64,000 bases of DNA, taken from Chytriomyces cf. hyalinus JEL632. Taxonomy: Eukaryota > Chytridiomycota > Chytridiomycetes > Chytridiales > Chytriomycetaceae. How positions within the stretch are numbered: position 1 is the stretch's first letter; each line of letters begins with the position of its first letter. The position numbers and the translations under genes are program-made. The DNA is taken from assembly GCA_025435555.1 (NCBI GenBank), contig JAIWWG010000002.1, positions 496,001 to 560,000 of the forward strand. The letters are read 5' to 3'. The notes under the pieces were generated by a model, which was not told the origin of the DNA, did not search any database, and saw nothing but the letters and a program-made list of their open reading frames with translations. Positions 21,315-25,193 of the stretch are shown piece by piece.

Positions 21315-24300
21315 ATGAGCGAAGCCCCGTTGAAGCGCACGCGATCGGCGACAAGGGCAAGCACCGGGAACGGAAACGACACAGCCAATATCTCCAATGG
21401 AGCTAAGGAGGAAACTGGAAAGAGCAAGCGTGTCAAGACACGGGCCCTACCCAGCACCGACCATACCGCCAATCCAAACAACACGAAAGCAGCTGCAACG
21501 GCGTTCGAAATTCCCGGATCAAACATTCAAGCACATCTTATCAGCGTTCTGGGAAAAGAATGCGTCACTCTGGGATATGGCTTAACTGCCCACATTGCCA
21601 AGCAGGTGGTTGCGTCCATGCCATGCTCGGCCTACCTCATTGCCACGGACTCGAACCTTGCCCACTTACATCTCGACGCGCTAGTGCAAGCATTCACACA
21701 TGCCCTTGAGCTGGTTGGGTCCAAGGCAAGAGTCCTCTCGTATGTCATTCCACCTGGGGAGAGCATCAAAACCAGAGAAACAAAAGCTGCCGCAGAAGAC
21801 TGGATGCTGCATCAAAAATTAACGAGAGACTCTTGCATTGTTGCTCTTGGAGGGGGCGTGATTGGAGACTTGTTTGGTAATTTTTGTCTTATCTCTCATC
21901 CCAAAATCTCAACGTCACGATGCAGGGTTTATTGCCGCCACGTTCATGCGGGGAATCCCAGTTTTCCAAGTTCCGACGACACTGCTTGCCATGGTCGACT
22001 CTTCGATCGGAGGGAAAACTGCTGTTGACACGCCAGCAGGGAAAAATCTGATTGGCGCGTTTCACCAACCGCGCCATATTTTTATGGATTTGGCCTACTT
22101 GCGCACACTCCCGCGTCGAGAATACGTCAACGGCATGGCTGAAGTCATCAAAACGGCAGCCATTTGGGACGAGGATGACTTCTCTCTTCTCGAAAATGGC
22201 GCGAAGGAGATTCTCGGTCTGAGCGCTGACGACACTGCCTCCGAAACTTCGGGTGCGTTTTTTATTCTTCTCCTGGCCATATTGCCTGATGATTGACGTC
22301 AGCTGGAATTTTGGACGCCAGATGATGACTTGAAGCTCTTGATCAAAGTTGTGCTGGGCTCCATTCAAGTGAAAGCGCATGTTGTCACAATCGATGAAAA
22401 GGAAACAGGTCTACGCGGATTACTCAATTACGGTCATAGTGTTGGACATGCAATTGAGGCGATTCTCAGCCCAGACCTGCTGCACGGCGAATGTATTGCC
22501 ATTGGAATGGTTCGCGAGGCTGAAATCGCCCGTCATTTGGGATATGTGAATGATGATGCTGTCATAGACCGAATCGTGCGTGTCCTGCAGGCGTACGGAT
22601 TGCCAGTATCAACTCAAGATAAGTGTGTACTCGAATTGGCTCCAGGAAAGCATTGCTCTGTGGATAAATTGTTGGATATCATGCGAGTTGACAAGAAAAA
22701 CCAAGGGGACAAAAAAAGAGTGGTTATGCTCTCTGGAATCGGAAGTACCCACGAACCAAAAGCAAGCTTCATCGCAGATGACGTCATTCGCAAAATATTA
22801 TCCAGCGCTTTGGAGGTTGAAGCGGCACAAAAATCGAGTGTGCCTGAAGAAGCTCTGATTCAAGCTTCGGGATCAGAGTCTTCGTTGGATGTCGACTCAA
22901 AAGCAGCTTTCAATGAAACCTCCATCGTCATCATTGGAATGAGAGGTAATTTCCTCCTTTGTCTTCACGTTGACATTGTTGTAATCTCGTCATACTTCCT
23001 TCTCAAGGCGCTGGAAAGTCCCACATGGGCATTGCGGCTGCAAAATCGCTTGGGCGCGCTTTTATCGATATGGATGCTTACTTTGATCAAAAAATGGGCG
23101 TACCTATTGCGAAGTTTGTGGCATCCAACTCGTGGGAAGCCTTTCGAAAATTGGAAGCTGAGCAGCTTGAAGAAGTTCTAAAAGAACATCCCAAAGGATG
23201 CGTGATTTCATGTGGGGGTGGTATTGTTGAGACGCCTGTTGGCCGTGATGCGCTTGCGCGTTGGAAAAGCGGGGATGGGCATGTTTTGCACTTGACGAGG
23301 AATATTCAAGCGATTATCGACTACCTTGGAGCGGACAAAACCCGGCCTGCCCTGGGAGAAGACCCTCGTTCCATCTGGTATCGGCGAAAGCCATTCTACA
23401 AAGAATGTTCGAATGCGGAGTTTACCATTCTGGCGGATGGGCAAGAAGCGAGCTGGAAGTTAGCTGAACGTGACTTTTCCAAATTCGTCAAATCCGTTTT
23501 GTCGACGCAAGGACGGCATGCAGTGTCCGCTGACTCTAGCTTCTTTCTGTCGCTGACATTTGCCGATCTTCACGATTATGCAAAGCTTTTGGCAACAGTG
23601 TCTGAAGGTTCGGACGCGTTAGAACTTCGCGTGGACTTGCTGAAGGAGCAAACGGATGAGTTCATTGGAGCTCAAATCGCTCTCATCAGAAGGCATTCCG
23701 ATTTGCCCATCATCTTTACTGTCAGAACCAAGAGCCAGGGAGGTCGTTATCCAGATGGGGATCTGAATGGCATGTTTGCACTCTTGATGCTTGGTCTCAG
23801 GCATGGATGCGAGTTTGTGGACGTGGAGGTGCTGGACTCAAAGACGGCCGAATTTAACAAGCTTTACAAAATCCTTTTGGCCAATAAGGGTCGGTCCCAT
23901 TTTATTGCAAGCTATCACGATTTCAGCGGAACTGCCATTTGGGATCTCACCACCTCTGGAAGTAACTTGGCCGCTGGATCAAGTGCTGTTCTTATGCGGG
24001 ACAAGTATATCGAGCTTCACCAGTTTGGAGATTCAGTCAAACTGATTGGAACTGCCAAAAGCTTGGATGATAATTTTGGCCTCTACCGATTCGTGAATCA
24101 TACGGTGCCTACCATGAACCTCCTGCCAAAGAAACCCTTGATTGCCGTTAATATGGCGGCCGCCGGTCAAATGTCTCGCGTGTTGAACATGTACATGACA
24201 CCCGTGACTCATCCTGAACTCCCCATCAAAGCCGCACCTGGTCAATTGAGCATTAAGGAGATTTTTCAAACACGGGGACTTCTCGGTCTTGTGAGCCCAA

Positions 24301-25193
24301 AACACTTTTATCTGTTTGGGTATCCAATCGCGTCTTCCATGTCACCAACCATACATAATACTGGGTTCGAGAGACTTGGGTTACCGCACAAGTACAGCAT
24401 TTCTGAGAATCCCAACTGGTCGCATGTGAAAGCAATGCTGGATGATGGTCTGAAACACGGTACCTTTGGTGGTGCCAGTGTTACAATCCCACACAAAGAA
24501 GAAATTGTCCGGCATAAGCTCGTCAACAAGCTGACTGAAGCAGCAACCAAAATTGGAGCAGTGAACACCATCATTGTGAGTACAGAAGGGCAGAAGGAAA
24601 TCATTGGTGATAATACCGACTGGCTCGGTATTCGTGCGTCAATCTTGAAACGCATTGGTTCAGTTGGAGGGTTTGACTTGGTTGGGGGAGTAATCGGCGC
24701 GGGTGGCACGTCTCGCGCTGCTTGTTTTGCGCTGCAAAGCCTCGGAGTTAAGGATTTGAGAATCTGGAATCGCACCCTGGCAAAAGCGGAAGTCATTGCT
24801 CAAGAATTTGGAGCATCTGCCATCAGCAAGTTTGAGTCGCTTTTCGAGACTGTTGGCTCACCTAGTGACGGCGATCAACGTCCCAAACTGTTTCTTTTAG
24901 TTTCATGCATTCCTGGAGCCACTCAGAATGACTTGCCCCTGGATGCAATGTTTTCAAAGGCAAACGAATGCGCCCCTATACATTCTGTCGGTGTGTTTGT
25001 TGAGATGGCGTACAGACCGCGAAAGACGACCATCATTGAACACCTTGGAAGCGTTGAGCGTACTCAGATATCGTGGTCGTATGTGGAGGGTGTCGAGATT
25101 CTGATTGAGCAAGGCTTGGAACAGTTTGTTCGTTGGACTGGAAGAATCGCCCCGCGAAAGGCCATTGAGGATGCCGTCTACACAAATTACTGA
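21315..25193 (+). CDS. ARO1: AROM shikimate-pathway polypeptide lacking the EPSP-synthase domain
   Basis: Exons 21315-21876, 21926-22252, 22322-22945 and 23008-25193 sum to 1233 codons (1232 residues); fungal AROM is usually near 1580. After a basic extension of about 70 residues comes dehydroquinate synthase ([41 protein letters not shown]). A linker of some 35 residues leads straight to shikimate kinase ([34 protein letters not shown]). Next are type I dehydroquinase ([13 protein letters not shown]; Schiff-base Lys in [11 protein letters not shown]) and shikimate dehydrogenase ([39 protein letters not shown]). In canonical AROM the EPSP synthase lies between synthase and kinase; here it is absent and no intron could hold it. 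The other four active sites look intact. EPSP synthase would have to be supplied by another locus. Confidence 0.95.

Follow-up and report, generated by a model that had tools for sequence, protein, structure and literature searches.

The window, a stretch of 64,000 nucleotides from the chytrid Chytriomyces cf. hyalinus JEL632, contains on contig C111 a gene (gene A) for a paralogue of the AROM polypeptide, with domains for dehydroquinate synthase (DHQS), shikimate kinase (SK), type I dehydroquinase (DHQase) and shikimate dehydrogenase (SDH) (Table 1). Spliced, it comprises 3,699 nt, that is 1,233 codons including the stop, and encodes 1,232 amino acids, which bears out the position, length and continuous spliced frame of the original prediction. 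All three introns (49, 69 and 62 bp) have GT-AG ends, those of intron 2 being a choice among frame-keeping options. Ahead of DHQS, exon 1 (21315-21533) encodes about 73 residues rich in Ala, Thr, Asn, Lys and Ser, compared with about 26 in the second gene described below (gene B).

Table 1. Features of gene A and the neighbouring p24 ORF, in window coordinates
Feature	Coordinates	Strand	Remarks
Gene A, AROM paralogue DHQS-SK-DHQase-SDH	21315..25193	+	Spliced frame, Pfam, own-genome search
Gene A exons (four)	21315-21876, 21926-22252, 22322-22945, 23008-25193	+	
Gene A intron 1	21877..21925	+	Phase 1; same place and phase in gene B
Gene A intron 2	22253..22321	+	Phase 1; counterpart at the corresponding place of gene B
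Gene A intron 3	22946-23007	+	Inside the SK domain
DHQS domain, about aa 76-464	21540..22824	+	Contains two introns whose places match in gene B
Linker, aa 465-493, at the EPSPS place of canonical AROM	22825..22911	+	
SK domain, about aa 494-665	22912..23489	+	Interrupted by intron 3
Type I DHQase domain, about aa 683-925	23541..24269	+	Only match of the family (DHquinase_I) genome-wide
SDH domain, about aa 931-1232, and stop	24285..25193	+	Only Shikimate_dh_N match genome-wide
p24/EMP24 ORF, 5 kb upstream of gene A	15734..16573	-	

The gene A protein scores above the Pfam cut-offs for DHQ_synthase, DHQS_C, SKI, DHquinase_I, Shikimate_dh_N, Shikimate_DH and SDH_C, and no EPSP_synthase domain was found in it by Pfam. 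In the alignment with the Chaetomium thermophilum AROM chain 6hqv, residues 66-465 correspond to chain residues 9-407 and the next block begins at query residue 494 and chain residue 867, leaving about 460 chain residues without a counterpart and about 28-35 residues between the DHQS and SK domains of gene A. Both results agree with the earlier claim that EPSP synthase (EPSPS) is lacking and that a short linker stands instead. The EPSPS place falls within exon 3, and no stop interrupts the ORF 22297-23181 in the linker, so that in this assembly there is no intron at that place that could hide an exon. Since, in addition, a tblastn search of the gene A region (4.6 kb) with residues 425-889 of the gene B product gave a best E value of only 0.41, a missing or trans-spliced EPSPS exon was rejected; this search also missed the putative EPSPS stump considered below.

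The inventory of the remaining genome rests on an assembly of 37.8 Mb in 242 contigs and on searches that score their best candidates only; the genome may be incomplete. Across these 37.8 Mb the EPSPS family has a single match, at C175:38999-40297 (E 2.6e-114), which lies in gene B (C175:37563-40375), a gene of three exons encoding 889 amino acids that form DHQS, then EPSPS, then end at a stop. For the ends of its intron 2, which lies in a poorly conserved stretch, 13 frame-keeping options are listed, five of them starting with GT. The stop stands directly behind EPSPS, about 275 bp ahead of an ORF that encodes a DM10 domain; no relic of SK-DHQase-SDH was found in the 3.1 kb downstream of gene B, where the best match (E 0.099) was taken as chance. 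The original prediction had considered a stand-alone EPSPS elsewhere in the genome and proposed a genome-wide search for an AroA domain. The loss of the domain from gene A is real, and an EPSPS does exist elsewhere, as the genome's sole match, on contig C175; there, however, it follows DHQS in a paralogous two-domain gene and is no stand-alone AroA.

With the whole of gene A as query, the genome yields seven stretches, four belonging to gene A and three to gene B, and the four stretches matched by DHQ_synthase are divided equally between the two genes, with none at any other place. The SKI profile matches gene A with 115.1 bits and gives two weak matches elsewhere (33.3 and 29.7 bits), the stronger of which lies in an ORF that, judged by eye from its motifs, looks like a gluconokinase. 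Neither gene qualifies as a pentafunctional AROM with the order DHQS-EPSPS-SK-DHQase-SDH in one chain, as A is without EPSPS and B consists of DHQS and EPSPS only, and profile and whole-gene A searches found no complete pentafunctional AROM in the 37.8-Mb assembly. In the sequence searched, DHQS thus appears to be the sole AROM activity that is clearly doubled.

Chorismate synthase is represented by four stretches on contig C1, three of them with internal stops, and DAHP synthase by 12 stretches on three contigs, one with internal stops; these are six-frame matches, in which such stops possibly reflect introns. The DAHP synthase stretches apparently form four loci (C123:304845-305916, C123:309222-310165, C180:21730-22873 and C218:109716-110980), the first of which includes the stretch with internal stops, five in number. 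Judging by these matches, DAHP synthase, which opens the pathway, may exist in several copies too. With matches for EPSPS, DAHP synthase and chorismate synthase all present, the genome can be explained without the earlier alternative that the organism takes up aromatics instead of making them. A contig scan for prokaryotic relatives of gene A, which reaches close relatives only, returned 11 stretches fitting the peptide pattern, none of which was confirmed.

The catalytic residues of both genes are well preserved. All 15 DHQS positions checked, which we take to be the active-site residues, are identical in A, B and the Aspergillus nidulans enzyme 1DQS. The SK, DHQase and SDH motifs of gene A, read by eye against 6hqv and part of them also against 7u5s, are intact, the roles that we assign to these strings being assumed; together with the DHQS positions and the Pfam matches they sustain the earlier claim of intact motifs in all four domains. 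Because A and B were themselves the source of the 13 motif strings located in A and the nine located in B, this step gives only their places. Gene A retains the DHQase His and Lys, both of which are lacking in Candida Aro1 according to the available text of PMC9074039. The EPSPS of gene B matches that of Candida and Chaetomium AROM with E values of 3.3e-163 to 3.7e-159, and its substrate motifs are in place on visual comparison with 7tbu, 6hqv and 3nvs. It carries GNAGTAxRF like the AROM of Candida and Chaetomium, so that the sequence gives no reason to expect unusual glyphosate sensitivity, and the altered sensitivity once suggested for this lineage is unsupported.

Gene A passes the NCBIfam cut-offs for aroB, aroD and Shik-DH-AROM, the latter two narrowly (141.3 versus 139.3 and 201.5 versus 196), and gene B passes those for aroB and aroA, the latter with 429.6 bits at a cut-off of 287.25. 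Among the 25 of 36 NCBIfam matches listed for gene A, no shikimate kinase model reached its cut-off; these models are bacterial or archaeal, and the Pfam SKI cut-off of 22.1 is clearly exceeded with 117.5. From their sequences, both A and B look like working enzymes.

The two DHQS domains are identical at 319 of 400 residues, compared with 199 of 379 (A) and 208 of 384 (B) against A. nidulans 1DQS. Both genes have two introns at matching places, all in phase 1, which favours copying at the DNA level over copying from a transcript. Over 383 DHQS codons pS is 0.83, which is saturated, and pN is 0.13; accordingly, the duplication is old and protein change has been restrained. A and B are ancient paralogues, and their DHQS copies are under purifying selection. 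Their identity is uneven, amounting to 65% in the exon 1 part and 88% in exons 2 and 3. Recent gene conversion of the DHQS copies was nevertheless rejected, because pS is at least 0.70 in all 11 windows tested, and the uneven divergence is therefore not read as its result. At the 71 ungapped DHQS sites that differ between A and B, the A. nidulans residue is kept by B at 21 and by A at 12, and by neither at 38.

Residues 465-483 of gene A (22825-22881) align with residues 422-440 of gene B without gaps and in register across the joint between DHQS and EPSPS of gene B. Seven of the 19 residues are identical, a value reached by one of 20,000 in-register residue shuffles, as are 32 of the 57 bases, which none of 20,000 codon shuffles equalled. 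If the first four residues are left out, residues 469-483 still show 5 identities in 15 (32 of 20,000 residue shuffles) and 24 identical bases in 45 (2 of 20,000 codon shuffles), and when this segment is slid without gaps along residues 401-889 of gene B, the in-register place ranks second of 474. A gapped local test of the linker was less distinctive, with 117 of 2,000 shuffles scoring equally well or better. Being in register with the start of the EPSPS of gene B, the linker is probably a stump rather than an assembly gap, and thus a probable remnant of EPSPS after an internal deletion.

The reading that we regard as very probable is that an AROM gene was duplicated and that A and B then underwent complementary domain loss. 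An ancestral five-domain gene would have been duplicated as DNA in this lineage; copy A would have lost EPSPS by internal deletion, leaving the short stump, and copy B would have been truncated behind EPSPS, with loss of the C-terminal SK, DHQase and SDH domains. The product of gene A would then convert DAHP to shikimate-3-phosphate with its DHQS, DHQase, SDH and SK domains (steps 2-5 of seven), and that of gene B would carry out the EPSPS step (step 6) and contribute a second DHQS (step 2). Both genes would be needed, and together they would supply all five AROM activities with DHQS doubled. By its gene content the pathway is not broken, the AROM activities being apparently split over two genes. 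The sequence itself shows the two domain arrangements, the single matches for EPSPS, DHQase and SDH, the preserved active-site residues, the shared ancestry and the purifying selection on DHQS; we infer the order of events, the production and activity of both proteins and the reason for the double DHQS.

DHQS may have been kept in both genes as a dimer module, as a partner of EPSPS or for dosage. Likeliest, it serves as the module that holds the AROM dimer and as the N-terminal partner of EPSPS, so that its loss would carry a cost in folding or assembly. According to the accessible text of two structural reports, DHQS is the main element that keeps the AROM dimer together, aided by DHQase (PMC9074039; PMC6851490), and the AROM of Candida and of Chaetomium is reported there to form a homodimer through DHQS. 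By analogy, provided that their DHQS interfaces still match, A and B could form a heterodimer through these retained modules and so re-join the five activities in trans, a tentative idea that we consider possible but rather doubtful. If it were true, the doubled DHQS would be the coupling piece of a natural split multi-enzyme, and unequal expression of A and B could adjust how much EPSPS there is relative to the middle steps. Older work in Aspergillus reportedly addressed the question of whether the EPSPS of AROM needs a covalently attached DHQS.

An assembly artefact, in which the EPSPS-coding stretch had been dropped from a normal AROM gene at the place of gene A, had been named as a possible cause from the beginning, and the observations come from a single assembly. 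It is very unlikely, however, since the frame is continuous over the junction and the linker seemingly holds a diverged stump rather than a clean joint. Moreover, 81 of the 400 aligned DHQS residues are different in A and B and the synonymous sites are saturated, so that the two are neither alleles nor a chimera, and two complementary artefacts would be required while the assembly contains no second EPSPS, type I DHQase or SDH match. Independent fusions, in which one copy of a DHQS gene was linked to EPSPS and another to an SK-DHQase-SDH gene, are highly improbable as well. Both fusions and fissions happen in such pathways, as stated in the available part of PMC4224340, but A and B each follow the five-domain order minus one stretch, with a probable stump at the EPSPS place of A, and the five-domain form is known from fungi, alveolates, oomycetes and Physarum (PMC4758236, available text).

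One of the two genes could also have become a regulator rather than an enzyme, like the QutR, GaaX and TanX repressors of Aspergillus, which resemble the SK-DHQase-SDH part of AROM. That such AROM-like repressors exist is documented in the accessible text of PMC10512348, where they are described as the last three AROM domains, catalytically inactive as a working hypothesis. Gene A shares SK-DHQase-SDH with them but has DHQS in addition and intact motifs, so it does not belong to this type, and it keeps the DHQase His and Lys that are absent from Candida Aro1. Furthermore, A and B each cover at least one step that has no other genome match, barring substitution by an enzyme of an unrelated type (the DHQase search covered type I); a purely regulatory role for either gene is a most unlikely explanation.

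Among known systems, gene A is close to canonical AROM, which it matches with E values of 5.8e-265 (C. thermophilum 6hqv) and 2.4e-246 (Candida albicans Aro1, 7u5s). The domain order is common to both and the DHQS active-site residues are retained, but canonical AROM holds its five domains in one chain, whereas here there are two chains with DHQS present twice. A laboratory analogue of gene A is the engineered Candida Aro1 EPSPS-delta::(GSS)6, in which an 18-residue linker stands in for EPSPS and the other four domains are retained as in A; in the available text of PMC9074039 its abundance equals that of the wild type and a severe growth defect is seen upon repression of the wild-type allele. 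Such a chain can accordingly be stable and needs EPSPS from elsewhere. In contrast to this construct, the gap in gene A is natural and a second gene carries EPSPS. Another natural departure from the five-domain form is the quadrifunctional shikimate enzyme of Acanthamoeba mentioned in PMC6029752, the accessible part of which refers to no complementary paralogue.

In a published survey, 390 multi-domain fungal EPSPS proteins had between two and eight domains each; SKI occurred in 374 of them, and DHQ_synthase likewise in 374 (PMC9394408, available text). Some of them are thus without SKI, as is B, and given this range proteins like B may already sit in databases, while a partner like A falls outside a survey of EPSPS-holding proteins; the available text describes no complementary AROM pair. 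A full-text literature search, with partial coverage that leaves most subscription papers outside, likewise found no report of such a pair. The accessible text of PMC4224340 names gene duplication followed by differential loss as one way in which gene fission comes about; the fission of FolB-FolK-FolP treated there concerns the folate pathway rather than AROM. Genes A and B are a clear candidate for duplication with complementary loss of whole catalytic domains, with the probable stump still visible; what they represent is a classic multi-enzyme taken apart by nature in an unusual manner, not a lost pathway. For fused AROM it is a long-standing question whether the fusion serves substrate channelling or mere joint production. 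With the steps to shikimate-3-phosphate in one chain, EPSPS in the other and DHQS in both, the pair would offer a natural test of this question, and channelling could be different in this lineage, as had been suggested.

The surroundings of the two genes were compared by matching ORFs all against all between 104 kb around gene A and 90 kb around gene B. Both regions contain a member of a p24/EMP24 pair (best E 5.7e-24), the paralogue on the B side lying at C175:12565-13242, about 24 kb upstream of gene B. Otherwise the comparison gave the AROM ORFs with their antisense shadows and one weak match (E 4.5e-7) that is J-domain-like by eye. A 109-residue C-terminal query from the C175 p24 has two genome matches at E <=0.01, itself and the p24 near gene A, and a 40-kb stretch from C1, a small control, gave no match to the A region and one weak match (E 5.7e-5) to the B region. 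The pair hints at a shared segmental or whole-genome duplication, but since its orientation and its distance to the AROM genes differ (5 versus 24 kb), it is a hint and not proof. The p24/EMP24 cargo receptor encoded in the window has a tail of about 150 residues rich in Gly, Tyr, Ser and Ala past its membrane segment, whereas that of the C175 paralogue is short.

No tRNA genes or tandem repeats were found in scans of the window. A search for Fungi_U3 gave five matches, all under the curated cut-off, and one for a conserved 18S string gave none; the Zn2Cys6 and FAP206 matches noted below and the DM10 ORF next to gene B fit a zoosporic fungus. On the 3' side of gene A (25398-27725, plus strand), overlapping frames without a Pfam match (25398-25942) are followed by an ORF with a match to reverse transcriptase (RVT_1; 27186-27725, E 2.6e-7), perhaps a decayed retroelement adjoining the gene. 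Genes of QutR-type repressors lie next to a Zn2Cys6 activator; the nearest fungal-type Zn2Cys6 regulator ORF among the scanned part of the window ORFs lies 22 kb from gene A (47321-49462, minus strand, 714 aa, E 5.2e-6), and a FAP206 match is also present.
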